25,371 nucleotides of DNA, from positions 1-25,371 of the IMG/VR virus record IMGVR_UViG_3300031957_002252. One strand, written 5' to 3'. A model generated the notes under the pieces. It saw nothing but the letters and a program-made list of their open reading frames with translations, made no database searches and had not been told where the DNA came from. Both the position numbers and the translations under genes were made by a program. This DNA comes from a virus. This document shows, one piece after another, positions 1 to 23,933 of the stretch. Positions within the stretch are counted from its first letter, which is position 1, and the number at the start of each line of letters is the position of its first letter.

Positions 1-1214
1 TTCTTGAACGATGCCGAAACATTTGCGAAAGAAGAACTCACTACATTATTAATAACACGTTCTGATTCAAATGCAAATGTAGATCCTGTTGTAAATCCTA
101 ATCCTTCGGCTGTGGAGGGCTCCAAGAATGTCGGATTGTTTGACCAGTTAAGTTCGCCTTTTCTCATAGAAGCAAAATACGTGTTTGTGTGTGTATATTT
201 TGTTCCTTGGAATGTTAGTCGGTAACTTCCAACTGGGTCTTGAGGTGTTGTTATGCTGTTGCCCCAATGAATCCACTTAGGATTACTCGTACCGTCGCTA
301 ACTGCTTGCTGTGATGCAACGCCAGTGCCCAGATCATATGCTCCGCTCAGAATTAAAAATCCTTCACGATAAAGAACAATACCCGCCACAGTGTCGTTCT
401 GAGCAGAAGCAAAACTGCTGCTTACCTGAATAAGTTCACCGTTATGTTTCTTATCAACAAGACTTCCAATGTAGGTTCCAGTAATGTAGTAGTCAAGCTT
501 TACAGAACCGGGCTTTATTTCGGAACCATAAAAAATAGATGGTATCGAAATAAGCGTGGAACGCACAACGTCGAAACTTCTGTTAGGACCATCTTTTATA
601 GATGCGGAATAGAAGAAATGAGGACTACGAATAGAGTTATAATCTAGTGTCGCTTCTAATGCTTTGAGCGCTGAAGCAGAGAGAAGCGGACGAATAGTCT
701 GTGCGTTCTGAAAATCAGAAACTGCCCTGTCTCTGTTGCTCTCTATAATGGTTGCATTGTTATTTTCAAGCGTGGTCAAATGATTTGCAGCAAACTCTTC
801 GCGAGCAATAGAGGCCGAAATATTATAGGAGCCCGTTAGGATAACACCGGGTTGTGTCTTCTTATAGGTATCAGATGTTATGCCCTTGAAAATAGGATCA
901 GTAAGAAGTGATTCTTGCCCTTTTACGACATAAGGATAGACAATACCAAAATTCTTTACGTTTGTACCACCGTCAAGCAAAGAAGAGCTAGGGCCTATAA
1001 TTAGACCCGTGTCAGCGTTAGCTCTGTCCACATTTATCTGGTAAAGTGATATATGACCAGTTGGTATACCGTATAAATTAGCTACATGCGTACCCGGAAT
1101 TGCATTCTGGTTTTGGTAATAAACGCTGGCACTATAAATAAAGAATTCGTTGTCTGGATATGTTTTTACTGTGTTGAAGAGCCTGTCTTCTTTGTCGAAT
1201 TGAAAAATCGACAT
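1..1214 (-). CDS. Virion structural protein, 3' end off the window (partial)
   Basis: I translated this frame by hand from an ATG at 1214. It stays open for 404 codons and leaves the window in mid-codon, so the C-terminus is missing. The start lies 4 bases after the stop of the 366-aa gene, which implies coupled translation. The N-terminus reads MSIFQFDKEDRLF. Residues about 224-365 hold a beta-rich domain with the landmarks SEIKPGSVKLDYYITG (231-246), DKKHNGEL (254-261), VAGIVLYREGFLIL (276-289) and KGELNWSNNPTFL (352-364). The 366-aa neighbour has matching landmarks in the same order, so the two look like relatives. No signal peptide or membrane segment is visible. By position and composition it is probably a peripheral tail or baseplate structural protein. 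The exact role is unknown, and a fibre or decoration protein is possible. Confidence 0.85.
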   Translation of the reverse strand, partial: MSIFQFDKEDRLFNTVKTYPDNEFFIYSASVYYQNQNAIPGTHVANLYGIPTGHISLYQINVDRANADTGLIIGPSSSLLDGGTNVKNFGIVYPYVVKGQESLLTDPIFKGITSDTYKKTQPGVILTGSYNISASIAREEFAANHLTTLENNNATIIESNRDRAVSDFQNAQTIRPLLSASALKALEATLDYNSIRSPHFFYSASIKDGPNRSFDVVRSTLISIPSIFYGSEIKPGSVKLDYYITGTYIGSLVDKKHNGELIQVSSSFASAQNDTVAGIVLYREGFLILSGAYDLGTGVASQQAVSDGTSNPKWIHWGNSITTPQDPVGSYRLTFQGTKYTHTNTYFASMRKGELNWSNNPTFLEPSTAEGLGFTTGSTFAFESERVINNVVSSSFANVSASFK

Positions 1215-1218
1215 AGCA

Positions 1219-2319
1219 TCAGTAATCCAGTCTTACGCGAATTGTATAGTTCTGTGTCGGGTCCTTACGAAGTGGTTCAGAAAGCTTAGCAACTGCAAGA
1301 AGCTCGTTATCAGGAGAGTAAAGCCCAACAGTTGTAAAGTAAGATACTGGAGTATCAGTTGAGTTATTCTTTACGCGAATCTCTGAAGCTGAAAGGTACG
1401 TTGGGTTTGCAGAATAGTTGAACTCGTTATGGTCTGCACGACAGAAGTAGATGGTAGAGTTTAGTTCAACAGTATTGTTGAAAGAAATATCGTAAATTCT
1501 TCGTCGGAAGTTATCTGCCATTGTATCTATGTTGTCTGTGAACAGAGCAGCGGGTGCGTCATTTCCTCCGAGATTATAAACAGCAGACTCAGAAAGCATA
1601 CCATTAAGTGCGGTTTCAGACGCAGAAAATACTGTCTTAAGATTTAGAATGGCGACGCCTGCTTGATAGTATAGCAATCCAACTGGTTGTGCGCTGGCAC
1701 CACCTGCTTGGCGGGCTGTTCCGCTAATTGGGCTGCCTAAAGAGTTCTCGGCGTAAAGCAGGCCATACTCTCCGGCTGGTGAATTGATCTTGTAGCTGCC
1801 GAGGGCTCCGGAGTCAAAGATCTTAATTCTTGAGCCCATTGGGCTTGCATAGGTCGAAGAAGCACCAAGTATCAAAGAGAAAGATTCTTTTTTGATCTCG
1901 TCCTTTGTGAGCAATCTAGAAAACGGAATCGCTACAATAGAATCCATTGTGTTACCAGTTCCCAGAACACCATCAACGTCAATCTCACGAATAGAGCCGG
2001 TAACATCATAGCCAACAAGAACCTGTGCAAATTCTTGATAAATGTTTCTTTTCTTCTGATTCTGTGAAGTAAGCGTCAAGCCTAAAGTATCCAAAAGAAC
2101 TGGGTTGGCACCAATTGATAGATCAAAAATATGGTTTGCTGAAGACGAAAGGAAAGGATAGTCATAAACAGACTCAAACATTCCATGAGCATAAGTCTTG
2201 ATGTTATTATCGGAATATGTTCCAGAAACAACAGAACCAGTAATTGGAATTGCTTCGTGCAACTGTGTCTTTGCAGACGCTACGTCAGTATTACGAATTA
2301 GTTTAAAAGTGTTTGCCAT
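1219..2319 (-). CDS. Virion structural protein, 366 aa, with C-terminal NPTY motif domain
   Basis: This is a complete 366-aa reading frame. Its ATG is preceded by an AAAAGG element 9 bases upstream. The N-terminal part contains HEAIPITGSVVSGTY (21-35) and MFESVYDYPFLSSSANHIF (47-65). The second half has FSRLLTKDEIKKESFSLILG (133-152), SPAGEYGLLY (180-189), VGLLYYQAGVAILNL (213-227) and NEFNYSANPTYL (298-309). It ends in a beta-like RVRLDY. From memory, this set of strings recurs in predicted structural proteins of large marine myoviruses; I ran no search. The second half parallels the protein encoded immediately downstream, which suggests an old duplication. No enzyme motif, signal peptide or membrane segment is seen. 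It probably belongs to the tail or baseplate periphery; its molecular role is not known. Confidence 0.85.
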   Translation of the reverse strand: MANTFKLIRNTDVASAKTQLHEAIPITGSVVSGTYSDNNIKTYAHGMFESVYDYPFLSSSANHIFDLSIGANPVLLDTLGLTLTSQNQKKRNIYQEFAQVLVGYDVTGSIREIDVDGVLGTGNTMDSIVAIPFSRLLTKDEIKKESFSLILGASSTYASPMGSRIKIFDSGALGSYKINSPAGEYGLLYAENSLGSPISGTARQAGGASAQPVGLLYYQAGVAILNLKTVFSASETALNGMLSESAVYNLGGNDAPAALFTDNIDTMADNFRRRIYDISFNNTVELNSTIYFCRADHNEFNYSANPTYLSASEIRVKNNSTDTPVSYFTTVGLYSPDNELLAVAKLSEPLRKDPTQNYTIRVRLDY

Positions 2320-2338: not shown

Positions 2339-3238
2339 TCAGCGATTTCTAATGAATCTAATAGGAACATCAACTCTGTAGCCGGTTGTTCCACCTGTTA
2401 CGCGAACTGTTGTGTCAATGAAGTCAACATTGTTACTACTCAAAGTTCCCTGCGAGCCTAACTGACTAAACAGGAAAGTGCTTGAATTCAATTCAAGGCT
2501 TGCCTGAATGGAGAAGCGCAGGCGTGTGCCTCGTGGACCAGCGATTGCTTGATTACCACCAGTTGTAGTGTTAGTGATGCTATCAACAAAATCAGGGTCT
2601 GCGTCAAGAGAAAGAATGTAAGATGCGATTTGATCATCATCAATGAAAGACAATGGGGCAGCAATATTACCATTCTCTGGGATTGAAACGATAGAGCCAA
2701 GACGATTGTCGATCTCTAGAATATACTGGGTTTCGACCAATAGGGGATCTAGAGCACGGCTTGGTGAAATAGCGGTTGTGTCCAAGCCTTGGTCGAGACG
2801 AATATTATTATCAATATTGCCTGCGCCTGTGCCGTCGATTACGCCGGCTACAGTTTCAAATGTTGTTACAGTTGCATCGTTAACAGCAATTGCGAACTGA
2901 TTGATCTCAGTATTTCTGGCTGTACCAGCAAAATTCTCGTTCAGTTTAACCACTGGTAGGTAAAGCAGATCGTTTCTCGGCACTGTGACTAGCCTAGAAT
3001 TCATTAGTGACGTATTATTCGTGAAAGATTCCAATACAGGAGTCTGAAGTAGCTCAAGGTCAGCGTAAGCAGAACCACTCGGATGGTTAAGGTCAAACCG
3101 AGTATAATTAATCTCATCGTCACCAAGTGCAAACTTTACAATCTTGAAGGAGCCATCACCCTTAGCTAAGCGCATTCTACCAGTATCGGTAAGCACCGCG
3201 TCGAGGATAATATCACCTGAGTTGTCCAAAAAAGCCAT
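2339..3238 (-). CDS. Virion structural protein, 299 aa, with N-terminal LTDTGR domain
   Basis: This is a complete 299-aa frame. A GGAG element five bases before the ATG supports the start. The N-terminus carries AVLTDTGRMRLAKG (14-27), then SFKIVKFALGDDEINY (30-45). This has the pattern LT-x-x-G, leucine pair, G-x-F, then an aspartate-rich turn and Tyr. The 339-aa protein at 10079-9060 begins with the same pattern. The remainder is beta-rich and acidic, with no catalytic motif, coiled coil or membrane span. The C-terminal 60 residues (from about GTRLRFSIQA) alternate as short strands and end in a basic PIRFIRNR. From memory, similar N-termini occur in structural proteins of large marine phages. 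A tail or baseplate assembly role is inferred from its position in the operon; the actual function is unknown. Confidence 0.85.
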   Translation of the reverse strand: MAFLDNSGDIILDAVLTDTGRMRLAKGDGSFKIVKFALGDDEINYTRFDLNHPSGSAYADLELLQTPVLESFTNNTSLMNSRLVTVPRNDLLYLPVVKLNENFAGTARNTEINQFAIAVNDATVTTFETVAGVIDGTGAGNIDNNIRLDQGLDTTAISPSRALDPLLVETQYILEIDNRLGSIVSIPENGNIAAPLSFIDDDQIASYILSLDADPDFVDSITNTTTGGNQAIAGPRGTRLRFSIQASLELNSSTFLFSQLGSQGTLSSNNVDFIDTTVRVTGGTTGYRVDVPIRFIRNR

Positions 3239-3273: not shown

Positions 3274-5808
3274 TTAGTTATTAGTAGGGAAAATATCATT
3301 CAATCTTCTAGATTGTTGTCCTAGAATATTTTTTCTCTTCTTTTCCACTTCTTTCCCGATAGGTACAACCTTTTTAATTCTTGAAGTTAAGTTTTGATCT
3401 TCTAGGATATTATAGTTTCTAAAGCTGCTTACGTCTACTAATAAGTTTGTAGAGCCGTTACTCGAAGGAACAGTCTGCTGGCTTGGTTCCTCAATTGGCT
3501 CTTCCTCTTCCGACAAAGAAATACTATCACTTTGCTGACTAAAATCGTTATATACTTCTGTATTAACACATGAAAGGTTAATGTCAAATATTTTATTTGT
3601 TTTTCTTGACCTGAACCTAAACTTGAACTTTTTGCCTTCGCCCGGAAAGCCAAACATACTATCTTCTCTAAGCCCTAAGAATACTTTTTTGTTCTTCGCA
3701 GGAAGAGGATCGCCATCCGTGTCGATTAGCTTAGATTTTTCAAAATTAACTGCTACTTGCGGGTATGCTGGACGTATATTCACCAGCTTAGTCATGGTTT
3801 TTGTATCTCTTAGAGTTTGTTTTTCGCCCTCAAAATTGTATTCTTCATAATGTATTCTGGAAACGCCGTCTTGATTTATATACATAACCTCAAATATCTT
3901 TGTAGGATTTGACGCTAGGTCTAATCTATTTCTAGCCACAAAGCAGAGATAATATTTCTTATTTACCTCAAGATCTAAAACTATGGCCGCAGAATCTGCT
4001 ATTAGCTTAGGATCAGAATCTGCAATAGTATCTACAGACGTTAGTTTATTAGCAAAGAAGGATTTATAATCACCCTGCTCTGATGGTTTGTTTGCGGAAG
4101 TGTATATCTCAAAAGAAGTAACAGTTGAAACGCTACTACGCTCAACCTCGCTATTGACATTAGTTAGATACGAGTTATCCAATATCGTTTCATTTCTTGC
4201 TCTGTCTGCCTGCGTAAGCGAGACAGGTACTGTTGACTCGTTTCCATAACGAGAGTAAAATACCATTTTTATCTTATTGTCTTGTCTACGAATAGGATAA
4301 AAGTCCACTCTTGGTTGAAGTGGTGGTGCGGCTAGGATGTTTCCGCGATTTACAAAAGCTGGTATCTCTACAACTCTTATCGAAGGGTAACTCTTGACAA
4401 CGAGGTCGTATGAGCCATCATTTTTCTGCCCTGAGAGGCTTTCATACTCATATTCACAACCATGTATCGCGAAAACATAGTTAATAGCATAAGTGTATTC
4501 TTTTCCATAAAACACTTGTGTATCTAAATATTCAATATCTTCTTTAGTATTTGGAATTACAAATGTTTGCAGCGGCGTACCAGTTGTGGTATTTCCTTCA
4601 AACTTATCTATTTTGTAATATAGTATCTCGGTGTTACCGGGCAATCCAGCAAACACATCTTCAACTCTTTTTGTGCTATTTGAATTCAAGTATTCATCAA
4701 CAAACTTCTTGCTAAATCTTGTTAGTGTTTTAGCAAAGTCTACGGCATCACTATAGTTATTGACGGCCAAGTCTAAACTAGGCGCATCAGTGTTATAAAA
4801 CTTGAGGGCCTGTATATTGTCCGGCAGTCCTTCCAATCTTGCTGGAGCCAAGTCATTAAGCCAATTTAGAAAAGGGTAGGAGCTTAGCTGTTGTTCTCGC
4901 GCTCTTAGGTTTCTGTTTGAAACAGCATACGTTTTTGGCGAAATAAATACTTCGCTATTCTGGAGGTGCCAACGCATCAGTAAAGAAGCTATGTCCCCCT
5001 TAGGGTCGGGATCAGAATTTTGACCATAAAACATAAAATTATTACCAAGCTTTATGAAGTCTTGCTTTTGATCTATGTTTCCGTTTGTGTCTTTTATTTT
5101 AATTTTTGCCGCAAAAGGAATCTCAGAAGTGTAATCCAAATCTTCTATCTCGTAGCTATACTGGCTTGTAGTATCTAATAGGCTGTTTGTGTTTATTACT
5201 TCTTGAAGTGACTCGGGAGGAATAAAGATATTGCTAAAAGCTAACCTCTGTTCTTCGTCTTCGTTGAGAACATTTTTGGCCATTTTTACATAACTGTTTT
5301 TGTTTTTTACGTTTCTTAGACCCGGTTCGTAATAATTGATTAGATATTTTTCATCAGTTTCTGGTTGTATTAGATCTTCATACTCTCTGTTTTCTCTGAC
5401 GTATAACAACTCCACACCAACTGTGGGCTTAGCTGCGATTACGTTTTGCCTATTTTCTCTCTTTACATCAGGCCGGCTGTCGGGCAAAACCATTTCGGCA
5501 GAAAAATCGTAATACCTCTCATTAAGTACAATTGTAGAAGCCAATATCTGTTGTGTTTTTTCTTGGTCTTCCGGCTGGATATTTAGAGTGACCCTAAAGC
5601 CGGAATCAAGTATAGAGTCGTTGCTAGATGCGCTCATCTGCTCAACGGAATCTACGACCATTTTAAAAGGTATGTTTTTCTTTCTCTTATAAAATACTGA
5701 GTTTCCCCTATATCTCCAAGATCCCAACTCCCTATAGAACTGATCTTCAACCTCAGTATTTTCACTGGTTAGAATTTCTGAATTTGCGATTACAACTTTT
5801 TTGCCCAT
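3274..5808 (-). CDS. Virion structural protein, 844 aa, with FN3-like segments
   Basis: This is an 844-aa frame whose ATG lies three bases after the upstream stop (TAA-AAG-ATG on the coding strand), so translation is probably coupled. No strong Shine-Dalgarno is visible. Two segments look like fibronectin type III or a related beta-sandwich. About 385-485 contains EILYYKIDKFEG, DTQVFYGKEYTYAINYVF and GCEYEYES. About 560-648 contains SFEIYTSANKP and NKKYYLCFVARNRLDLASNP, resembling the F-G strand region of FN3. This fold call rests on strand pattern only. Residues 759-790 form an acidic, Ser/Gln-rich low-complexity linker (LSEEEEPIEEPSQQ). The last 40 residues are Lys/Arg-rich. The gene is visibly more AT-rich than the middle of the giant gene. 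It is most likely a tail or baseplate structural component, possibly paired with the adjacent 1074-aa product. The function is not established. Confidence 0.85.
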   Translation of the reverse strand: MGKKVVIANSEILTSENTEVEDQFYRELGSWRYRGNSVFYKRKKNIPFKMVVDSVEQMSASSNDSILDSGFRVTLNIQPEDQEKTQQILASTIVLNERYYDFSAEMVLPDSRPDVKRENRQNVIAAKPTVGVELLYVRENREYEDLIQPETDEKYLINYYEPGLRNVKNKNSYVKMAKNVLNEDEEQRLAFSNIFIPPESLQEVINTNSLLDTTSQYSYEIEDLDYTSEIPFAAKIKIKDTNGNIDQKQDFIKLGNNFMFYGQNSDPDPKGDIASLLMRWHLQNSEVFISPKTYAVSNRNLRAREQQLSSYPFLNWLNDLAPARLEGLPDNIQALKFYNTDAPSLDLAVNNYSDAVDFAKTLTRFSKKFVDEYLNSNSTKRVEDVFAGLPGNTEILYYKIDKFEGNTTTGTPLQTFVIPNTKEDIEYLDTQVFYGKEYTYAINYVFAIHGCEYEYESLSGQKNDGSYDLVVKSYPSIRVVEIPAFVNRGNILAAPPLQPRVDFYPIRRQDNKIKMVFYSRYGNESTVPVSLTQADRARNETILDNSYLTNVNSEVERSSVSTVTSFEIYTSANKPSEQGDYKSFFANKLTSVDTIADSDPKLIADSAAIVLDLEVNKKYYLCFVARNRLDLASNPTKIFEVMYINQDGVSRIHYEEYNFEGEKQTLRDTKTMTKLVNIRPAYPQVAVNFEKSKLIDTDGDPLPAKNKKVFLGLREDSMFGFPGEGKKFKFRFRSRKTNKIFDINLSCVNTEVYNDFSQQSDSISLSEEEEPIEEPSQQTVPSSNGSTNLLVDVSSFRNYNILEDQNLTSRIKKVVPIGKEVEKKRKNILGQQSRRLNDIFPTNN

Positions 5809-5811
5809 CTT

Positions 5812-8800
5812 TTAATATCCGAGATTTATATTTTGATTTATGTTTTGATTTATGTTTTCTTGGGTTCGACCGGCAGTTTCTAGTTCAACATCTGCTCTAT
5901 TGAATGTGGTTCTTAGATAACTGGAGTCTATTGATCCTGAGGGTTGCGTGATATATATCGAGGATGCAAAGTATTTTTCAAAATTATTAAATTCGCTTTG
6001 ATCAACTGCCTTAAGCTCGATTACTGTTTGATTGAGTGTATTAGGCTGCTCGGGTAGTTCCGGAGCGGTCACTATGGAAATGTTGATCAGAGAGGATAAG
6101 GGAGCTTGCCTACCTTGATCGCGGCCTTGAATTATTACAAAATTGTTCTCCAATACTCTACTTGGTATATCATACAAATTGGTCAGGAATTCATCGTTTG
6201 AATACATTTCAACTTTGCAGAGATATTTTGTGTCAGAACCGCGATTTTGACTATCAAGCAAATCGGCTGTTATATTCTCGTAGACAGGCTGTAAAGATTC
6301 GTCCTCTAGCCTTACCAAAACTTTAGCCTCACCTAAAGTGGAATAATTATAATAATAATACGCTAAGTTGTTGTTATCAAGCAATTTTAGATTTTCGTTC
6401 TCATCAAACAATACTGTATCACTGACCGGGGAAGAGAAGCTACCATATTGAAATGGTATATCTTTATTGGCAAGTCTCTCCCTAAGCACTGCGAAAGCCA
6501 AAGGATTTTTGCCCGGAGATTCAGTTACACTTAGCACTGCTTCTCGGTTTACAACAGAATTTTGGATTATTTTGGAAAGCGAAAGATCTAGTTTAGTGGA
6601 TATAGTGTCCAGATTCATCAACTTGCTTTTTTGCTCTAAGTTTTGTACCTCTGCTCGGTTGCCTACACTGTTATAAGCTCTGGAGCTAATAGCTTCCAAA
6701 TCTTGATCAACTGATATGCCGGAATCAGCCAAGCTTTCGAGTATTCCAACATATCTGTGATATTGTGTGTCCTTTTGTCCAAGAAGAACTTTTTTGCTTT
6801 CCTGCTTCTTTGTTGTGGAATATCCTAATCTGGAGGTGTACTTTTGTTGTTTTGTTTTTCGCACTGAGTCATCTAGCAATATAGATAAAAACTTTGTGTA
6901 ATCTTGATTATCTTCAATGGTCTCCATATCTTGTTTCCTGACTCGATAGTCTTTGTCTAGGAATACGGTATATGGCTTGTGATAAGTCAAAAATGTCTCA
7001 TCCGCTTGTGGGCTTGACAGAGATGCGTCTAGCCTATCAGTGGAAGAAAACTTTCTTCTAGAAACTGCTGGTAAAAATACTGGGGTCTTGAAGTCACTAC
7101 CTTCGACAGAATAGTTTGGATCATAAGAGTCTACGAACTTTAAGCCTACTGCGTTTTCAAAATTCAAGTTCAGAACATCAGAATTAATTTGAATTTCTAT
7201 CTTAGACTTTTCTTTTCCTCCGCTAATCGGCTCTATGGAACGTGATTCGGCTAGTTCATTTAGGAAGCTATAATCTTTTATAAGTTTATTTACAAGCCCT
7301 TCATATGCATTGTATATTTTCTCTAATTCGTAAAAATTTCCTGTTTCTATGTTCGCAGAAAAATATAGCGATCTCAACAACTGATCTGGAACTACCAAAT
7401 CAGATAAATTGTAAAAGAACTGTAGTCCTGCTACCATTGAAGCAAGCTCGTCTATAAAATTACTTATGTCCAATTTTTTCGTCTTTGCTTCTTTTGTGAA
7501 CATACCGTTACTGTTTCTAAGTGTAGGCTTGCTTAGGGTAGAATATATGGCCTTAAATCTATAAAAACTGTTTTGCAAATTCGTAATTTTACTGGATATA
7601 AATTCTCTGATGCCGTCTACAAATTGCATTCTAAATGTGTAATAAAATTCTGACTTTCTCAATACTTGCGGTACTTCGTCCACAAAACACAAAACTTTAT
7701 ATTGCGTGAGAGGGTTGCCAAAAGTATTCTGTCCCGCTTCTTCAAAGTATATGTGAGAGGTAACTTTATCGTCGGATGTAAGCTTGCTGCCCGGAATATT
7801 TTGATTATATACCTTTGAAGTTTGTGAGCCGGCCTTGAATGTTGTACTTATTACAGTATTAGAAACATTTTCATTATTTAGCACCGATACTCTATCAACT
7901 TCTATGCTTTCTAGGTAAGTTGTACGGTGGACATATGTTTGTTCGTTGTTATCTAAGCGATCATAAAAAGCTGAAAATAGAGAATTTTTACGCAGCAAGG
8001 TTTCCGGGTCTATGAACAATAAGTTGCTTGTGTTCTTTGGCGTTTTACCCAGCAAATTTCTTTGCTCTCTTTTGACTATAGAAGATATAACGGGACTAAC
8101 TCCAGTGCTTTTAGGAATAAAGGCAAGCTTCTCTGCTGTTTTATTATCCTGTAAAAGCCTTGTTTCTTCAATAAAATTGAAGTTTGGCTCTAGAGAGGCA
8201 AAAAGATTATCTATATCAACAACTCTTTTATCATAGACTTTCACAACCTGTGAAAGTTGCGGGTGTAAAATTCCATGTTCCTGAGTGGTGTGTTTTAATC
8301 CTTCCATATACACCCTATTGCCGCTTTCTACTTCTTCCTGTTGATGGGTTCCGCCCGCCCAAATCAGATCTTCAGAGTCTAAGAAGTAGTAGTTTTCGTT
8401 AACAACTACATCATCTCTAAGTATTAGCTGGCCGTTTATTTTCCCGTATAATGTATTCTCCGACGCCAGAGATACCCGAGAGTTATTATTTACAGTCTGA
8501 ACAGCGGCAAACGTGAAAACAGCCATGTTATTAGGACGCACTTGCTTTACTTGAATGTTTACTTCTTTTGTTGGCTTATAGTAAGTAATATTATTATTTG
8601 TAATCTGCTCTACATTTTCTAGCATCTGCTTGAGATTCAATACTTTATATTCGTATTTTCTATTCGACAGCAGAGATTGTAATTCTTTGAATGTAAAATC
8701 ACCATTTCTAAGCAAATTAATTTGCCTATTTGTGTTAGCGACTATAACATAAACATTCAAATTCACGTCTTCAGCCAAATTATTATATGTTTTCTCGTTC

Positions 8801-9036
8801 AACATCAAAAATACTTTAGTAGAAACATTGACCACTTTATCAGGCTCTTGTCCCACTAATTCTTCTTCTTGTTGTAAAATCGAAGTTTCTTGTACTCCGT
8901 ACTCATTGACAAATAAAGTTCCGGGCAAATTATCCAGCTTAAGTTCATCAATGCTTGGATAACCTAAAGAAACCTCCTCAATATAGCTAGGAGGAATAAT
9001 TGTGTCTTTTAGTGATGTAAAATTTAGTTCAGCCAT
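5812..9036 (-). CDS. Large virion structural protein, 1074 aa, function unknown
   Basis: This is a complete 1074-aa frame. The ATG at 9036 is preceded by an in-frame TAG seven codons upstream and by an AT-rich leader. The nearest AGGA is 16 bases away, so initiation here has no good Shine-Dalgarno. The protein is rich in Asn, Leu, Ser and Glu, with no signal peptide or membrane span. A local motif at 228-258 has four histidines (H231, H249, H254, H258) around RVYMEGLKHTTQEH. The C-terminus ends in three near-identical 4-residue units (NINQ, NINQ, NINL) followed by GY, encoded by 12-bp DNA repeats. The middle (about 500-900) looks mixed helix and strand. I do not recognise a named family. Its position between the 339-aa and 844-aa structural genes argues for a tail or baseplate component. 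Confidence 0.85.
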   Translation of the reverse strand: MAELNFTSLKDTIIPPSYIEEVSLGYPSIDELKLDNLPGTLFVNEYGVQETSILQQEEELVGQEPDKVVNVSTKVFLMLNEKTYNNLAEDVNLNVYVIVANTNRQINLLRNGDFTFKELQSLLSNRKYEYKVLNLKQMLENVEQITNNNITYYKPTKEVNIQVKQVRPNNMAVFTFAAVQTVNNNSRVSLASENTLYGKINGQLILRDDVVVNENYYFLDSEDLIWAGGTHQQEEVESGNRVYMEGLKHTTQEHGILHPQLSQVVKVYDKRVVDIDNLFASLEPNFNFIEETRLLQDNKTAEKLAFIPKSTGVSPVISSIVKREQRNLLGKTPKNTSNLLFIDPETLLRKNSLFSAFYDRLDNNEQTYVHRTTYLESIEVDRVSVLNNENVSNTVISTTFKAGSQTSKVYNQNIPGSKLTSDDKVTSHIYFEEAGQNTFGNPLTQYKVLCFVDEVPQVLRKSEFYYTFRMQFVDGIREFISSKITNLQNSFYRFKAIYSTLSKPTLRNSNGMFTKEAKTKKLDISNFIDELASMVAGLQFFYNLSDLVVPDQLLRSLYFSANIETGNFYELEKIYNAYEGLVNKLIKDYSFLNELAESRSIEPISGGKEKSKIEIQINSDVLNLNFENAVGLKFVDSYDPNYSVEGSDFKTPVFLPAVSRRKFSSTDRLDASLSSPQADETFLTYHKPYTVFLDKDYRVRKQDMETIEDNQDYTKFLSILLDDSVRKTKQQKYTSRLGYSTTKKQESKKVLLGQKDTQYHRYVGILESLADSGISVDQDLEAISSRAYNSVGNRAEVQNLEQKSKLMNLDTISTKLDLSLSKIIQNSVVNREAVLSVTESPGKNPLAFAVLRERLANKDIPFQYGSFSSPVSDTVLFDENENLKLLDNNNLAYYYYNYSTLGEAKVLVRLEDESLQPVYENITADLLDSQNRGSDTKYLCKVEMYSNDEFLTNLYDIPSRVLENNFVIIQGRDQGRQAPLSSLINISIVTAPELPEQPNTLNQTVIELKAVDQSEFNNFEKYFASSIYITQPSGSIDSSYLRTTFNRADVELETAGRTQENINQNINQNINLGY
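5825..5860 (-). repeat. Three 12-bp tandem repeats inside the 1074-aa gene's 3' end
   Basis: On the plus strand the three units are TTTATATTTTGA (5825-5836), TTTATGTTTTGA (5837-5848) and TTTATGTTTTCT (5849-5860). Units one and two differ at one base; unit three differs from unit two at its last two bases. Read on the coding strand they give the NIN(Q) repeat just before the terminal LGY. The unit is a whole number of codons, so gain or loss of copies keeps the frame. Confidence 0.9.
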
Positions 9037-9059: not shown

Positions 9060-10079
9060 CTAATCTTTGCATTCTGGTGGAGGATTACCGTCCCCATAAA
9101 TATTCTCGACAGAGAGTCTTTGAACGTCTGAGTCTGGACATAGTGTTTGCAATGATGCTGGCAAGGCGAAATCTTTAGTTTGCAACTGGCCAACAAGACT
9201 ACATATAAAGTTTTTAGGTATTTCGTTATAATCATCTGTGTATACATTGAAGTAGTATTCAACATTATCTGTAGTAACTGGATACTTTGTTAGCAAAGCC
9301 TCGTCATTGTCGCGGTCGATCTTGGAACGATACAAATTGCTATCGTCAACATAAAGATCTTCGATTTGTTTTTTGAAAGTTAGCTTTCTTAATTGCTTAT
9401 CGCCAAGATAGTTTTCTTCTTCCAAGATCTCAAAAACTTCAATTTCAAAATCTGCAAAATTAGTAGCCACGCCAATTTCTTCCAGTAACATTGTAAGCTG
9501 CTCGGTACTCACATAAGGATAACCACCGTCAGGGAATTGTATTGAATCATAGGCAATTGTAAGTTCCGGCTCATCTGTAAAAGTAAATGTTGGGTTGACT
9601 GCGCTGTCAATCGTTGTTTGAAATTCTAGATTTACATCAATTTGTGGTATTGGTAAGCTGTCTCGTTGTGCTCCCGAAGCAGAGGCAGTATAGAAATTAT
9701 TAAACGACTCTATTTCATTGTCTAGCAGAAACAGTTTCAGTCTTGAGCTTGAGCTTGCAACTGTATCACATTTCCCTAGCGACTCCCTTTTTGCTATTTC
9801 TGTCTCAAAGTCTATGCCAATAATGTTTATATTTTTTGTTTTTTCATCCAGCAAATTAGAAAATCTATTTTTTTGAACTCTCAGATATGGTGTCTCCAAT
9901 TTGATTCTGCCATCAATATCATTTTGCCCTTCGCTTGCCGTAGTGATAAAGCTGTAGTTTACACCCTCGTCGGAGAAAGAGTAATAGATGGGCCTGAACT
10001 TTCCTTCGGACAAAAGGTCTTCGCCATAGTTTGTAAGTTTTAGTTCAAGAATATTTTCTTTTTGGTTGAAGAAAGTCAT
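9060..10079 (-). CDS. Virion structural protein, 339 aa, with N-terminal LTNYG domain
   Basis: This is a complete 339-aa frame. Its ATG overlaps the stop of the 3205-aa gene by one base (TAATG), a classic coupling junction. The N-terminus contains ILELKLTNYGEDLLSEGKF (10-28) and PIYYSFSDEGVNY (30-42), then EGQNDIDGRIKLETPYL. From memory, this block is typical of a family of structural proteins found beside giant proteins in marine T4-like phages. The 299-aa protein shows the same core pattern, so the two may be distant relatives. The rest is acidic and beta-rich, with FEIEVFEILEEENY around 212-225 and YYFNVYTDDYNEIP near 275. It ends in a Pro/Cys tail (GNPPPECKD). No enzyme or membrane motif is seen. 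A role in assembling or anchoring the giant protein is plausible from the coupling but is not shown. Confidence 0.85.
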   Translation of the reverse strand: MTFFNQKENILELKLTNYGEDLLSEGKFRPIYYSFSDEGVNYSFITTASEGQNDIDGRIKLETPYLRVQKNRFSNLLDEKTKNINIIGIDFETEIAKRESLGKCDTVASSSSRLKLFLLDNEIESFNNFYTASASGAQRDSLPIPQIDVNLEFQTTIDSAVNPTFTFTDEPELTIAYDSIQFPDGGYPYVSTEQLTMLLEEIGVATNFADFEIEVFEILEEENYLGDKQLRKLTFKKQIEDLYVDDSNLYRSKIDRDNDEALLTKYPVTTDNVEYYFNVYTDDYNEIPKNFICSLVGQLQTKDFALPASLQTLCPDSDVQRLSVENIYGDGNPPPECKD

Positions 10080-13000
10080 TATTCATTTTCTCCATTATCG
10101 GGACTAGATATACCTAAACCCTCAAGAATTCCGACAAGATCGGCTGCGGCGGCGTCTGCATCACGTACACCAGCAACGCCCACTTGAATAGTTTCAGCCG
10201 GAAGCATGTCTACTCCTATATCAAGCTTGCCCATTTCAACTAAGCTGAAGTGGTCGTAAGGCCAGTTATAACCAAAGTATTTTTGCTCTTTATTAGTCGG
10301 TATCTCTTTACCGAGAATGTCTCTCTCATAATTTGTCTTTGCTTTTTGTTTGACCTTGAAAACCATCCATTGAATATCTTCTGGTAGCTCAATGGAGTCA
10401 CGGTTTAGTGGTCTACTAAGCAATTCCGGGCCTCGTAAGTTATGAGTAATCGTTTGCTCAACTTCTTCAATTACTTGACCAGATGGAGGAGTAAGGTTCT
10501 GCCAAATATAACTTAAGTCGTTTTCATCAAATGTGTGTTCAAACTCAAAGATATAAGCACTATAAGGCTGAACTTCGTCTGAATAGTTGATAAAGTCGAG
10601 ATATGGCGGGAAATGATAACGCTTCATTTTTTGAATCTGAAGGCCGATGCTGTTCAGGCCAGCCGATGGCGTGCTATCGTCTATAGTGTCGATTAATGTA
10701 GCAACTTCTGCTATGTTACCTGCCCCTGTCTCTTCGGAAGCAAGAGGGAACAACTGCTTTACGCCTTCAATATTTCTAAATGGAATTGCTACGATAGCTT
10801 CGCGGACAGTCATTTCCTTCTTTAGTTTTCCTAGCTTGACCGGATCCTCTGAGAAGCCACAGACTTTTGAGAGTGGTATGAAGTCTTTCGGAGAAATTTG
10901 TTCAGTGCTATCGCCAAATGCTCTAATTGTATAGGCGTTACCAGCGCCGGTAGCTCCAATGCCATTTGAATCACGGCCTGTACCGATGACTCCGTTAGGA
11001 TGATTTTCATACCATTCAGCAGGAATTGTCTCAACCTTGAGATAAACCCCTTCATTCTCTTTTGGTATTCTACCAAACTGATGCCACATGCCCCGTGGAA
11101 CAGAAGCCGAAAGTTCACCGTTAGGCTGAGTCACTGAGCTATAGTCTGCAAGGTGATTAAAGTTTAGCATTGGAGTCTCAAACTTGAGTTCAATAGACCA
11201 CTGGGCTTGATCGCCCTCTCCAACAACTTCAAAAGCATTAATGCTGGCTGAAAGTTGCATGGCGTTTGAATTTAGATTACCGTCACGAGCGGGCAAGTCG
11301 GTACCCGGATTGGTTCCAGCCTCCTTGTCAAATCTCCAATAGTTCACAAATAAGCCATCTTGCCTATCTTCAAAAGCCGAGGATGCGTTAGAATTTGGGA
11401 AAGTAAATAAGAACTGATTTTGCTGTGCATTGGCAGCATCGTCCTTGAGAATGGGCCTGTATGGCGTTCTAGAAGAGTTGCCTGCTGCACCGCTAACACT
11501 GGTGTTTGTTGGCACATAGATAACATCTATCCACGCTTCTCCATCATAATATGGAGGAGTAAATGGTAAGTTATAGCCATTTAGCGAATCAAATGCCCCA
11601 GAAAATACAGTTGTTGCTTCGCCAGAGTCTCCGACGCCAATTGTTGGCGGGCCAAAAGCAGATGGTCTCGAATACATTGTTAGTGTTGGTCTTGAGAAGC
11701 TTCTTTGCTCTTCTGCATCTGTGAATGACCCTGTACCAATCCTTGCCTTAGAGTCATCTGTTTGTGTAGTAATATCTTCTGTGATGGAGCCAAGCAATGT
11801 GTCACTAACGAAGAAGAAGTTATCTAAACCATTATCGGTATTTGCCGGTGTTGCACTATTAGATACTGCTATACTAATATTACTTTCAAATATTCTAGAG
11901 GTCACTTCTATCACAACAAACTCTTCGTAAAGTCCACTACTTGCACAGCCGGCACCTTCAATGCCGGGAATATCTGTGTAGTCAATATTTGTATTAAACT
12001 GGCGCACGCTGTAATCTGGGTGTAAGCTTATTACAGAGACAAGGTTAGCTGCGACGGACTGATAGTTAATGTCTGCCGGCTGACCCAGTGGAAATCCTGT
12101 TGTATCTGTGTTGAACTTGAAGTTGTTTCCTGCCGCATTATATACAATATCTTGCGCTGAGCTAACATTGTCTTCTGAGAGACCAGTTACTGTCCAAGAC
12201 CCTGCTGTTGCGCCTGAGAGTGTAAAAGAAGCGGCGAAAGAAGAGTTCCAATTTGCATCAGATCCATTGGCAAAACAGTTAGCACTGCCTACAAATGATG
12301 GATCTGAGCCGGCAACAAGCCCCTTGTTCAAGTAAATATAAGCAACTGGTGCTGTTCCTGCTTCTTCGATAATTTGAGGCACGGGGTAGTTGCCATAGCT
12401 ACCAGAGTTAAACTTCGGCTTATTGAGAGATCTATACATTTTGATTCTCATGCCATACGCTTTACCCGGAGTTACTTCTTTGAAATCCGCTTGTCTGCCG
12501 GAAAGAATTCTAGTTGTTCTATCGCCTTCCAAGAAAAACCCGACCGACTCTGCCAGATAGTTATTTATCATGTAGATATATAGATTATTTTGCCCAGTAA
12601 TAGAAATTTCGTTTCTTAGCTTAGCCGCTGCACTGTTGATTCTAGTAAACTGTGTGTCATCGTTATCTACAATAACTTTGCCATTTAGCAAAGAAGGATT
12701 ATATAGTGCCTCAAAGGGTATTCTCTCATCAAAACTGCTTGAATATGAGGCTACTCGATTGAGGAAAACGCCCTCTGAGGATTTGGTGGACGTGTTTACT
12801 CCGCTAGACAATGGCCGTTGACCTCTGCTGTAACTGTCATTGAAAACAGGATAATCAACTGCCATACCAGACTTAATTGAATTGTAGAGAAGCCCCGGTG
12901 CAAACAAGGTTTGCATTATTGGTCGAAGCTGATTCGTATCGCTGACTTCCTCTGTTGCAAAGTCTGCGGGTACGGTGAATGAATTATCGCCATAGGTATT

Positions 13001-16000
13001 AAAGAACTGTTCTGCCACTTGAACAGATCTTTCAGAAGGAAAGAAGCCATTGTAAGGCAAGAACTTTTTAATACCTCTAAACTTGAGTGTCAACGAACCC
13101 GGCTCTAGGCCATTATCTTCTGCTCCATCTCTTACTTCTTCAAAGTGTTTCATTAAGTCACTGTGAGAATAGATTTTGAAAAAGTCTTGCTGCGAAGAAT
13201 TCTGCGGAAGGCTGCGGAGCAATGGTCTATTCACCTCAGAAGAAGGATTTCCTTGCTTAATCTTAAAGTTTTCATTGAATGAATCAGGGTCAAAAACATT
13301 TATATTCTCTAGATCTAAGCCCACAAAATCAGATGAAATGTATTCTGGGATGATTGATAGATCTTTACGCTTTGTTTTGACATCTAAGTTGTAGACATCA
13401 TATGTATCATCAAAAGGTTTAGCCGGCTTAGTGATGAATGAAGTTACGTTATTTGAAGAAGTGAATATACCTGCTTGCGTACCTGCTTCCCATTTCGCAA
13501 AACCAGAACCAATAAGTGAATAAATTGTATTTGTTGCTCCACCTAAACTTGGCTCGAATGAACTGATTTTTATTCCGCCATCGAGAACCAAATCCATTCC
13601 ATGTGGAGAAACAACAGAACGTACTTCTTGCATAAAGTGATTTCTTGCATAAGTGGGCTGAACATTTAGAGTTAGCGCGGAACCCGTCTGTGGTACGCCG
13701 GTCGAAGGTACCGGATTATACTTATTGTATGTTGTAAAGTTTTGCAGGATGCCCGAATTTCGAGTATTGTTAGGGTTAGCAAAAGTATTTGCTCCGGGTG
13801 TGCTAACACCCGAAGTACGATCATCGCGGGATCTAAAATTAGCAAGCTCAAAACGTCTAAACACGTCAAGATCCCACACTGATCTCAAGTAAAAGGCGTT
13901 ATCGTCACGAGCACCAAATGGTTTCCTCTTTGGGCCATCGTCGCTTCGATCCTGAGCGTCGTCTCTCCAGAAGTTGCTGACGAAACCAACTCTCTCACGA
14001 ACTTTTTCAAGATATGAGTTTTCTTCCGAAGGCCATAGTGTTTCTCTATATTTGATGTTATTGAGTGTAAATGTGTTGTCTTCAGCAAATGTTCCAAGCA
14101 TATTATCAAAAGCGGAATCGTTTTCTCCTTCAATGAGGTCATATCCCTTATTGATAATATCTTGTGAAAAATATAGCTTTTGATTGCCGTTTTCTACATT
14201 TAAGATGTATTCTTTGTTTCCAATACTTGCTCTTACTTCTACCGGATCATATCGACATGAAACAACCGATTGAGTGGTTACTGTGGTTGCTTCTTCAATA
14301 ATCGTTCTGAATACTGGGGGATCAAATACAGTTCTTGCGGTCGTACTTGGGTAAGCAAACAAGTTATTATTTTTCAAATAACGACTTACTCTGCTCTCGC
14401 CTACCCTTACCTGTTTGAATGAGGCATAGCCATAAGGGCCATTAGTATTAAGAATAAAATCATTCACCAACACGCTTGAGGTGGATGGGAATGTAACTGT
14501 TAGTGTATTTTCATCTACTGTTGGAACTGCCGTCTTCAGGTCATCAGATACAACATACAGGTTAGCTCCAACAAACGAAAGTGAGGAGTTGCGGTCAGAC
14601 CCAGATGTAAATACTATTTCACTTACCAAGCCAGCGGAGGTGGACACCTCACCAGTTGGAGTCTGATAACCTAGAATGTAGCTTGATTCATAAGACGAAG
14701 TGATCCATGCGTATCGAAGCTCAGTACCGGGGAGCGAAGTAACAACATAGTAGTTATCATATAGTGTCTTAGTTGTATCCGAAGCGCCAGAGCCTGTAGC
14801 GAAGTCATCAGCAGAACCAGAGTAGCGGACCAAACGACCTGCTCTCTGTGTCTTGTGGAAACTTGGAACGCCCACACTAAATACTGATGAAGTTCCAAGG
14901 TAGTTGGATGATGTCACGTTTGATGGATTATAGAGAGAGGAGCCAATATTACTTTGATCGCTGCTGAAGCCACCAGATACAGCGTGGTCAACTAAGAAGA
15001 TATTATTTAATGGCAATCTGGTAACCAAGTTTCTATAGTTCATGTGGCTGTACGGGCTTAGCTCAGCCGCCTCGTAGTCAAGACCTACGCCACCTTGGTT
15101 GTCGCCAGCGGTTAGGGGATCGCCGGGTGCCGAGAAACGGTTAACAATAATATGTTTTCTTGCAGGTCTCGTTGGCTTTGTATAGTCCGCGACATCTGCG
15201 ATAAACGAAGAAGTAATGCTGCCTGTTCCAAAGCCTTCTGCCTTGACAAAATCAGGATTGTTTACACTCCGACCATTAAGCTGCATAAGTTCATATTCTT
15301 CAATATAGTTACCGTAGGTCTGTGAGCCTGAACTGTATTTAATATTACGAATGTTTAGAGGGCGCTTAGCACCTTCGTCTCGTGTCCAAGGAGCATATGG
15401 TAGATTAGCATCTACTGAAGTCATAGCATCGTTATCAGTCTGAGGGGGGCCAAGGAATATTCTTTGTAAAGATCCGTTGAAGCCGATCTTGTAGCCTTCG
15501 GGACGTTCGGTTGTTGCCGAACTTGTATTGAGATCGTTGTGGCGATATTGTAAACCACCAACATGTGTTTCGGTAAATACACCCTGCATTGGAATTTCAT
15601 TAGTCAAGCCGTAGTCTAAATGAATGTTACCAATGTTAATCAAGTTGTTTACGGTCAGCGCATCGTTGTATCCTGCTAAGGATGGACTCTTGTATGAGGC
15701 ACTGAGAATGTTTCCGGGGAATACGATTTCAACATTGTCTTTGACAAAGTTTGAGACTTCTGGACCGAGATCGCCTTCAAAAGATTCAATATCAAATAGG
15801 CGTTTTCTCTTATCGTCTAATTCTTCGTCGTCTTTGATAGTAAGAGTCTCTGCAAAGTCAGAACGAATCCGGACGTCAGAATCTGCATCAGCAAACTTGC
15901 TTACAATGCTGCGGAGGAGATTGATGTCTTTTCTTACTGTGCTACTCAGACCGCCGAAGATTGTCCTGTCTTGCTCAATACCGAACGAGACATTTTCAAT

Positions 16001-19000
16001 TATCTGATTGTTCTGTGAGTCTTGCTTGAAATAGGAAGTGCCGGCTGCTGTGAAGTTCTTTCTATATTCTCGCAGATTTCTATTCTGCTGGATAAGTTTA
16101 ACCGCTGCGATGCCTTCGTTGACATCTTGATCGCCACTGCCTACAGAGCCGGTTCTTTCTGCTCTCTGCTTCCACCAAACGGCGTTATTGCTCTGGCCTG
16201 TTGCGTCTGAAACAGGAGCATGGCCAAACTTCCAGTTGTAATCAAGATCATTGATGCCCTGTAGTGTAGCCCCAAATGTATTTGTGTCCTCAACTACTTG
16301 CTGAAATTGGGGATAAGGAGTTAGAACCTTATCTCTTTCAAGAATGTGGTTTTCAATAATATCTTGCATTCCAAAACGTAGGTTAGCAGTTTCTGGAACT
16401 AGCTGCAAGATAAAGTTATATACACTATCATCGAACCATTTGTAGTAATCATAAAACTGATTGAAGTCTTTTACGCTCTGAACTCTTTGGAAGAACAGAG
16501 TCCGCAGGTTATCTAAATTGTTGTATTCTTCTCGGTACAGAGCGCCTGCTTCGCCAATAATGTTATTGAACTCAGTTACATTACCAATGAAGTCAATCAT
16601 TTCGCGAGAGAACGCACCAGCAAAGGACTTCTCTAGGGAGTAGTAAAGAGTCTCAGGGCTAAAGTCTCTCTTGAAAACTTCGTCATCAGAAGTAAGAACC
16701 TTTACAAGATCAGAAGAATTTACCTGCTCTGGGAATTGAATGTCCGAACCAATAATATTCTTGTTGTCCACAAAGGCTGTACTACTTTCTGGGAAACCAA
16801 AACCCTTGAATTCATACTGTGTTGCAAATTCCGCCCCATAAGGAGAAGCATAATCGTTACGAATATCTTCATCTGCCGATGTGGAGCCTGATGCGAAGTC
16901 AACTGCCAAGAATTCGCCAGAAGAATCTGAGCCTGTTACTGTCTGGAAGTCCACGTTGAACAGGATAGTGCTTACTTCGGGGATATATGAGCCGGTTGCA
17001 GTGCCCGCACTAAATAGGGAGAAGTTCTTTGTGGCTCTTGATGTGCCGAAAATATTACGGTCCTTAGCGTGGGCCTCTATGGCCTCCTGTGAAAGGACAA
17101 CATTATCGTAATGTCTGATGTGTCCGATTTCGACATCTGTCTTTGTAAGCACCGTTCCGGAGAAGTTTGTTCTGTCTGCGCCTGCAAAGTAAGTCTTAGG
17201 CGTTGTGAGCATAAGTTGTGCGCGGCTAGTGAGGAGCGACCCAGAAACACTAAAGCTATCGTTTACTATATCGCCTTCAGTGTTGTAGCCTGTTAGAGAT
17301 ATAAAGTAACTCGGTACCGACCCAGAGACGCCAGATCCATAGTCTTGCTGGTCATTATAAACAGAGACAGCAAATGTCCATTCATTTCCTGTATAGACCT
17401 CTTTAAAAAGGCTTGAACTACAGTATATAATGCCGCCAGCAGCGTTCTTGATCGCAAAGTAAGCGTCTTTTGATGCCTCAAATGGTCTAATAGCCATAAG
17501 TTGGAAGCTATTGTCTGTGGAGCTAAAATCATATGAACCGGTATTGTCAAGAAGATGGAAGCCAAATATAGATGATGACAAGAAGGATCTACTGTAATAG
17601 CCGGGTTCGTCAGGCTCGCGAGACCTTGGGAAGAATACATTTACCTCAGCCGAGAATGAACTAGAAGCGTCCTGTGCTCCTGTGATGTAAAATTCTCCTC
17701 TAGCGTTGGCATTTGAAGAGGCGGTTTGAAATATAGTTGCGCTAGTTAGCGACGAACTATCAAAAGAAATATACTTCTTTGGCTCCAAATTGTTCTCAAA
17801 ACGATCTTCTATTGTGTAACTTCTATTTGATGAATATCCCTTGAGATCTACTATCTGGTTAGAAACTCCAATAGTTCTTAAGAAGTTTCTTACTGATTTC
17901 TCTGTGCCCTTTGACTTAAGTATGGTTACGGCGTTATTATAAATATTAGTGTAAATTTGATTCTTTACATCGGTAAGATCTTGCTCATAAATCTTTGTGT
18001 CGCCACGATTACGAACAAATTCAAGTAAACTTTCATTTACAAAAAGCTCATCAGTATCAAGGCCGATAGATTGTAGCACCCTATCCATAACAGGATATGC
18101 TTTATAGTTAACTGCTGTATCAACTGTGGGGGGCTGGCCGTAGTTATTTTCTTTTACTTTGTTTATCTCTTGTATTTGCAGATACATCTCATCAAATGTA
18201 TTGGCCACAATTTGAATTGTTTTCTTCAAATTTTCATCGCCGTCGCCGTCAATTACGAAATTTGGAAATGTATTGTATAGAAGAGATGAGTTTTGCGAAT
18301 CATAGAAAGAGCCACTTTCAATTAGGCCATTTAGTGTTGAAATATAGTCAGGATTTTGTTGGTGGACTACAGGGTCTCTATATTCTACAGGGGCAACGCC
18401 TGCAAGAACCATGGCAGATTCTGTTTCTCGTGCATTTGAGCCGGGATAACCTACCCAGTTACCGTTTGATATACGGCCCGAATAGTCAAGCACTATAGAG
18501 TCGATAGAGTTGACTAATGTCTTGCCTTCGTTAAACTTGTAGTAGGCACCTAGTTCTGTGTTGGCAATATCATTATTGGTGCCACCATACACATTAGTTA
18601 TATAATACTTTGCAATATTTTCTGTTGTTCTTTCTGTCTTCCAATATCTAAATTCGTCAAGTGAAGCGGAAAGCTTACCAGCGCCTGCGGATGCGCTTGT
18701 TCCGGATGGTGCCGTAATCAATGCCCCAATTCTAGCTTTTAGGCCACCAGTTACATGATTTAGATTAAGTCCAGAAGTAATTGTATTTTTTAGAACACCG
18801 TCTAAATAAATTTTAACCCTGTCGTCTCCGTCTGAAGGGTTCTTAATGGAAACCGCATAATGATGCCAATTTCCATCAGCTAGGGTACCAGTAGTTTGTC
18901 CAGTGCTTAGAACTACATTCTGAAACCCAGAAGATCCAGAAATTAAATTCATTCTAAAAGGATCTGATCCGTCTGCTGTGCCGCTTACAAACAGGGTTAA

Positions 19001-23549: not shown

Positions 23550-23933
23550 CTAAATAGTAATTTCTAGAATTAAAAAATCACTAATTGTAACTTGAGCATC
23601 TATGGAATATTCAATCGCAAGTCCGATCTGACTACTATCAATATTCTCAGTATTGAAAATAATATCAGTGATTGCAATATAGGGCATATAGATTCTGGCC
23701 TGTTCTTGTATTTTGTTTATGATTTGTGCTTCTAGTTGAGGTGTGTAGTTTTCAAACAAATAGTTTCTAATACCGACACCAAAATCAGGTATTCTTATTC
23801 TCTCGCCCGGAGCAGTTAAAATAAGAAATCTTAAGTTTTGCTTAATGGCTTCTTTAGGATCCACAAGCATTGAAAATGCGCCGTCAATCGCACTGGTGGA
23901 CAGTGGCTCTCTCACGTTAAAACCTTTAGTCAT
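23550..23933 (-). CDS. gp25: Baseplate wedge protein, GPW/gp25-like, 127 aa
   Basis: This small protein matches the GPW_gp25 family, a core of every contractile-tail baseplate wedge, in length (127 aa; T4 gp25 is about 132) and in motif. It has DPKEAIKQNLRFLILTAPG, then GERIRIPDFGVGIRNYLFEN. This corresponds to the family's conserved Glu-Arg loop (the EPR-type core) followed by an FG-x-G-x-x-x-x-LFE segment. A helix (QLEAQIINKIQEQARIYMP) and strands IAITDIIFNTE and LAIEYSIDAQV complete the usual fold. It probably sits on the gp6-like ring where the sheath begins. The ATG at 23933 shares its A with the TGA of the preceding gene, so its translation is likely coupled to it. The gp6/J-like gene follows after 22 bases. 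Confidence 0.92.
   Translation of the reverse strand: MTKGFNVREPLSTSAIDGAFSMLVDPKEAIKQNLRFLILTAPGERIRIPDFGVGIRNYLFENYTPQLEAQIINKIQEQARIYMPYIAITDIIFNTENIDSSQIGLAIEYSIDAQVTISDFLILEITI

Follow-up and report, generated by a model that had tools for sequence, protein, structure and literature searches.

The window, that is the whole stretch of DNA analysed here, is a virus record of 25,371 nt with its genes on the minus strand. In order, these genes encode a protein of 471 aa, gp25- and gp6-type proteins, and proteins of 669, 3205, 339, 1074, 844, 299, 366, and 404 aa. The presence of the gp25-type gene anchors the region as baseplate. The features considered below are the following:

23550-23933, minus strand: gp25-type baseplate wedge protein (PF04965, E = 1.4e-11; phrog_261, E = 1.6e-19)
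21725-23527, minus strand: gp6-type baseplate wedge protein (phrog_219, E = 4.6e-20)
9060-10079, minus strand: 339-aa protein (P0003), an N-terminal module followed by a different, fast-changing body (64-member family alignment)
9951-10079, minus strand: N-terminal module of the 339-aa protein, residues 1-43
3274-5808, minus strand: 844-aa protein between the two module-bearing genes, found in most related loci (81 loci)
2339-3238, minus strand: 299-aa protein (P0002), an N-terminal module followed by a β-rich body (71-member family alignment)
3101-3238, minus strand: N-terminal module of the 299-aa protein, residues 1-46, a putative collar N-half
1219-2319, minus strand: 366-aa protein, encoded directly after the 299-aa gene, with a putative second collar piece at its C-terminus
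1222-1341, minus strand: core of the 366-aa C-half, residues 327-366, TTVGLYSPDNELLAVAKLSEPLRK..., aligned with columns 90-134 of the P2 gpH profile
3-1214, minus strand: 404-aa fragment, second gene downstream of the 299-aa gene, cut by the window end

The core of the C-half of the 404-aa fragment lies outside the window, and what is said of it here is based on relatives; in related loci, its place is occupied by a second C-half protein. The proteins at issue are annotated as hypothetical in named relatives and lack Pfam or PHROGs matches, yet their places are conserved throughout a large marine T4-type group. The 1074-aa gene (5812-9036) is present in only 5 of 93 records, its neighbors being widespread, and its site seems to be a place for lineage-specific genes. 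The 3205-aa protein (10079-19696) has no clear Pfam match (best E = 0.059), and its residues ~3021-3160 are the best conserved across relatives.

The shared N-terminal module

The sequence-only reading had noticed that the 299-aa and 339-aa proteins begin alike and had proposed a common small docking module fused to different bodies. Both of the stretches it quoted are present on the minus strand, at 3104-3202 (DAVLTDTGRMRLAKGDGSFKIVKFALGDDEINY) and 9954-10052 (ILELKLTNYGEDLLSEGKFRPIYYSFSDEGVNY); the plus strand of 3104-3202 contains a stop codon. The tyrosine is not at equal spacing as had been claimed, the distance from LT to Tyr being two residues longer in the 299-aa protein owing to a GD insertion, and the alignment needs a gap. 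BLASTP aligns residues 1-46 of the 299-aa protein with residues 1-43 of the 339-aa protein (30% identity, E = 0.001 in a single comparison), a score modest enough to raise the question of a chance or compositional similarity between two unrelated N-termini. The Smith-Waterman score of the two 50-residue N-termini is 53, which is reached by none of 20,000 shuffles, by none of the 861 N-termini of other ORFs from the same loci (at least 150 aa), and by 51 of the 80 N-termini of the 339 family. For profile comparison, both families were collected from IMG/VR: of 111 relatives of the 299-aa protein, 80 loci were retained, and the 339-aa protein contributed 11 loci. With hhalign, the two family N-termini align in 44 columns (E = 4.6e-11). 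When the window gene families, several of which contain few sequences, are cut into 269 tiles of 60 residues, the module pair scores 1.2e-9 and 1.4e-9 and the best unrelated tiles reach 0.01 and 8e-4, a margin of five orders of magnitude. Chance similarity, with profile E-values of 1e-9 to 1e-11 and no other ORF or shuffle reaching the pair, is refuted by these comparisons and can hardly be entertained any longer.

Full-length family profiles match over their first ~50 columns only (E = 2.8e-6), and in every comparison the match ends at about residue 46-50, beyond which the bodies differ. HMMs of both N-termini, run with HMMER default filters against 3,814 ORFs from a redundant set of 93 records, return no ORF outside the two families even at E up to 10, with cross-matches between them. 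In a joint alignment of 60 N-termini, L16, G20, D40, and Y45 are invariant, and the module is N-terminal in both proteins. On this evidence, the first 46 residues of the 299-aa protein are homologous to the first 43 of the 339-aa protein, and each of these T4-type phages uses one inherited N-terminal module twice, on two of its tail proteins. The similarity first noticed is real and more general than that reading had it: a small common module sits on different bodies, at two fixed places of the tail/baseplate region.

The first 40 residues of the 299-aa family have a mean identity of 0.88 to the window and form the most conserved 40-residue stretch among the broadly sampled window gene families; over residues 3-21, most columns hold one residue in more than 95% of 75 sequences. 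Residues 1-40 of the 339-aa family are 0.52 identical to the window, and the rest of that protein changes, the 64-member alignment having a mean column identity of 16%. Both genes occur in 78 records (the window included), the 299 type alone in 13 (among them L001, a piece of the window), and the 339 type alone in 2, the records with a single module gene being mostly cut short. The spacing between the two genes is 5.0-9.4 kb (median 6.8, 77 records). L017 and L040 have no 339-aa gene despite 8.2 and 6.7 kb upstream, the shortest spacing seen being 5.0 kb, and it is likely missing from them through truncation. Fifteen longer records were searched whole, and 13 of them hold exactly two module copies; G008 has two copies and a third that is weak (E = 0.021). 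In 14 of the 15, gp25 was located, always upstream, in the order gp25 - 339 type - 299 type, and gp23, the T4-type capsid protein, in 10, which are the ten of at least 138 kb. In G014, the contig of L086, two 299-type modules adjoin at 96042-97459, making three in all, the extra copy looking recent.

AlphaFold2 models the body of the 299-aa protein (residues 91-299) with high confidence and its residues 1-90 with low confidence (blocks of pLDDT 33-58); the model of the 339-aa protein is poor (pLDDT 65). A helix covers the LT..G stretch in both models (residues 18-26 and 17-24, respectively), so that the predicted folds of the two N-termini do not contradict a common module, but the remainder of both modules is of low confidence and the test a weak one. 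High conservation that goes with no confident fold would suit a part that folds on a partner, but a shallow or uniform alignment could have the same effect. The same combination might be expected of a maturation or assembly signal, a tag read by an assembly factor or chaperone and lying outside the mature docking interface. We consider this improbable: a helix-strand-acidic turn arrangement with four invariant residues in 60 sequences fits a structural role better, as does the likeness to a fiber attachment domain described below.

Fold searches bear on the bodies, as the N-terminal module is of low confidence. An Ig-like or pilin-like β sandwich was considered for the 299-aa body, with loose matches only (Foldseek best E = 6e-4, TM 0.25; VIA Z at most 6.8), and no fold relative is therefore claimed. 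In the viral library, this body matches A0A1B1IUS2 (35% identity, E = 9e-11) and UPI000018F681 (205 aa, E = 2e-5), the latter being, as we assume from its protein length, perhaps p129 of phage RM378. The best PDB match of the 339-aa model has E = 0.84, and among solved structures none gives a meaningful sequence E-value with profiles A1, A2, A3, or gpH. Neither the 299-aa nor the 339-aa protein finds a convincing Pfam or PHROGs match in a scan of the window proteins (the 3205-aa protein not being in the joint scan), and no family of either database is convincingly matched by the 71 and 64 family members. No PHROGs tail family matches the 299-aa protein at E of 1 or below, and the distances may exceed what its models reach. 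In the 339 family, 8 of 64 members match phrog_300 (tail fiber; best E = 0.0032), the match falling on N-terminal residues 26-62 in 2 of 10 slices of this family (E = 0.013 and 0.14); it was set aside because it is absent among the best 25 of the 34 gpH matches, and nothing is built on it. Literature searches in open-licence papers turned up no account of the module or of a collar divided between two proteins.

Likeness to the P2 gpH collar domain

In R pyocins and P2-type fibers, the collar domain lies at the fiber N-terminus and has been inferred to contact the baseplate (PMC6363177). The LT..G...LA - strand - GD pattern of the 299-aa module recalls the start of P2 gpH. The gpH / R-pyocin tail fiber collar (PF12571, DUF3751) and the 299-aa module are both N-terminal in a tail protein and share LT..G...LA, a strand, and the GD turn in one register, and a later part of gpH resembles the C-terminus of the 366/404-type proteins. 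Unlike in the window, where the two parts belong to separate neighboring genes and the second lies at the C-terminus of its protein, gpH carries both in one polypeptide, at the N-terminus of a long fiber.

A gpH profile of the PF12571 type was built without sequences from the phage group of the window. In a 12-sequence version compared with 232 tiles, the 366-aa C-terminus ranks first (1.2e-6), the 299-aa N-terminus second (5.9e-5), and the 339-aa N-terminus third (0.011), the best unrelated tile being at 0.038. A 50-sequence version, from which 80 near-identical P2 relatives and L226 and L227 were left out, returns the 366-aa C-terminus at 4.2e-7 and the 299-aa N-terminus at 4.2e-5 among 177 tiles; the 339-aa N-terminus scores 0.013-0.022, the best unrelated tile 0.024, and a reversed gpH profile at best 0.0092. 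The 299-aa family therefore carries the gpH pattern above noise, and the 339-aa module, at the level of sequence profiles, is within noise. The alignments divide gpH in two: its residues ~8-41 align with the 299-aa N-terminus (E = 3e-5 to 4e-5, 30-31 columns, hhalign probability ~70%), and its residues ~48-134 match the very end of the proteins in the next gene family (366/404 aa).

Searching the 3,814 ORFs with the gpH HMM at E up to 10 gives the same division. It matches 168 of 173 C-half ORFs (best E = 5e-4), 21 ORFs of the 299-aa family (E = 0.69-8.3, none significant alone), and 3 other ORFs (E = 5.1 or more). The 21 weak matches carry weight only through their common register, with gpH 9-42 aligned to residues 14-44 in every case. 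Among 170 match rows of C-half proteins, 30 begin at gpH column 55 or before and nearly all end at column 110 or beyond, so that the two gpH pieces (~8-41 and ~48-134) complement each other with hardly any overlap. With PF12571 itself, a 722-aa protein of phage Mel-JY01 is touched in its C-terminal region (model positions 88-115, E = 0.03), and phrog_30680, which is among the gpH matches, is touched at positions 82-114 by the C-half proteins of L023 and RM378 (E = 0.07 and 0.075, respectively).

At its cut-off, PF12571 returns no row for the 299-aa, 339-aa, or 366-aa protein of the window and no match for 10 C-half proteins; it is absent among all 15 Pfam families matched by the 71 members of the 299 family and among the best 25 of the 28 matched by the 64 members of the 339 family. 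The module is not assigned to PF12571, since it falls below the cut-off and the second half is not in the same chain: within the 299-aa family, the gpH profile matches the N-terminal tile only, the second gpH part being the C-terminus of the neighboring family. It is possible that a divergent second collar part is hidden in the 299-aa body. The link of the N-half to gpH, drawn from a profile-profile comparison over 30 columns, is weak, and the GLYD..LIAVA hairpin of the C-half could be a widespread motif unrelated to collars.

Downstream proteins and relatives in named phages

The C-half is found in 170 proteins from 89 loci, all downstream of the 299-aa gene, and in all 170 it forms the extreme C-terminus, with at most one residue after it. 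There are two such proteins in 83 loci, one in 4, and none in 2. The gene directly after the 299-aa gene has a C-half in each of the 87 loci with at least 1.3 kb downstream. The 366- and 404-type proteins are side-by-side paralogs, in the window (3-2319, minus strand) and in relatives, and have in common a C-terminal region with the pattern FNYSxNPT...GLYD..LIAVAK..P..K.

Relatives in named phages are few. With the 299-aa protein, tblastn matches 6 of 50,697 phage records, namely four immuto isolates, Mel-JY01, and LR756508; the 339-aa protein gives one weak match, in RM378 (E = 0.6), and another member of its family matches none of the phage records. A joint module profile finds two copies in RM378, in p129 (E = 1.8e-15) and p127 (E = 1.3e-5), and one copy each in immuto, Mel-JY01, and LR756508, an uncultured huge phage. 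The Rhodothermus phage RM378 is presented as a Far-T4 isolate with no readily identifiable structural module (PMC4360716). Its p129 and p127 carry the N-terminal module, and p128, lying between them, ends with the C-half; these homologs are all annotated as hypothetical. Unlike the window, RM378 has a single C-half and two N-modules in a row, with no large genes between.

The same N-module opens gene 163 of the Flavobacterium phage immuto (219 aa) and WWT39512 of the Microcystis phage Mel-JY01 (211 aa), and C-half genes follow directly, as in the window: genes 164 and 165 in immuto, and the next gene in Mel-JY01 as well as in RM378 (p128). Both phages differ from the window in having one N-module each and shorter bodies, and no 339-type partner was found in their records with the A3 profile. 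LR756508 has two C-half proteins, the first directly after the N-module gene. The numbers of N- and C-halves are thus unequal in these phages: 2 and 1 in RM378, 1 and 2 in immuto, 1 and 5 in Mel-JY01. One Mel-JY01 C-half protein contains a laminin G-type lectin domain (E = 3e-14), which fits host recognition. The five C-half genes of Mel-JY01 lie in a row.

Co-variation and the putative two-protein collar

We consider that the N-module is probably a docking module, one half of a collar made by two proteins. As a best explanation, to which we give a probability of about one half, it would be the N-terminal part of a collar of the P2 gpH kind, whose other part is encoded apart, in the neighboring genes. 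The 299-aa protein would then be an adaptor on the baseplate, and the C-terminus of the 366-aa protein would be accommodated by its first 46 residues, so completing one attachment collar; the second collar part would be the last 40-85 residues of the proteins encoded next (366 and 404 aa), and the 339-aa protein would do likewise with the second C-half protein (404 aa). We infer the baseplate location, the physical pairing, which half goes with which, and the order of assembly. The fuller version, in which two collars per phage (299 with 366, 339 with 404) each combine the first 46 residues of an adaptor with the last 40-85 of a neighboring host-recognition protein, is tentative, and we hold it at somewhat less than even odds; the arrangement of two N-modules (13 of 15 records) and two C-halves (83 of 89 loci) would mean two collars per phage. 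If this is true, fiber-like proteins hang by their C-terminus, and the phage could exchange them while keeping the adaptor. It would also give a first map of the fiber attachment site in these phages, make the C-half a sequence handle for finding host-recognition proteins, and provide a case in which the fusion of a domain in one group of phages predicts which proteins touch in another.

A simpler account dispenses with the second half. The module would be the same N-terminal plug for one repeated baseplate site, the C-half of the neighbors would be a separate attachment motif, and the likeness to gpH would stem either from remote shared ancestry among tail attachment domains or from a helix-strand motif of frequent occurrence. 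A short, N-terminal, extremely conserved segment present on two bodies is what such a plug should look like, and low confidence in monomer models is expected if it folds on its partner. The T4 protein gp9 would be a precedent, as its N-terminal domain binds the wedge, through gp7, and the rest carries the fiber, which joins the C-terminal domain (PMC3004832). Like gp9 and peripheral wedge proteins, the window proteins could be wedge-fiber adaptors, and their genes lie downstream of gp25 and gp6; no sequence match between gp9 and them was found, and the comparison is by place and role alone. This account leaves unexplained the clean split of an independent gpH profile over exactly these neighboring families, as well as the mutual co-variation that links the 299-aa module to the 366-type C-half but not to the 339-aa module. 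We regard it as a serious candidate, with roughly the standing of a minority view.

For the co-variation, 13 segments were compared through their pairwise distances by partial rank correlation. All five genes are present in 61 loci, of which 50 entered the test after removal of 11 whose 299-aa bodies were identical. The test is exploratory, a first version having been seen before the permutations, and the permutation p-values are uncorrected for 78 pairs. Residues 1-60 of the 299-aa protein, with the module, and the last 85 residues of the 366-type protein are mutual best partners (partial r 0.30-0.31), a correlation that none of 2,000 permutations reaches, and in 66 of 100 subsamples (30 each) this C-half (C1) is the best partner of the 299-aa module. 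The part that lies between both on the genome, residues 61-100 of the 299-aa protein, has a partial r of -0.12. Slow-changing segments may correlate for other reasons. The 339-aa module correlates best with the middle of the 404-type second C-half protein (0.26), then with its own body (0.17) and the second C-half (0.15; permutation p 0.02). The 299-aa and 339-aa modules do not vary together (N2-N3 partial r ~0), and this exploratory result points to different partners for the two modules rather than one. Of the idea of one docking module on two bodies, the shared module stands in outline; a common docking site for both proteins, which the co-variation does not favor, would be conjecture, as would docking on the virion at all. 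Outside the split-collar model, the 844-aa protein has high partial correlations, of 0.32 with the body of the 339-aa protein and of 0.31 with the second C-half, and the 844-aa, 339-aa, and second C-half proteins perhaps form a further complex.
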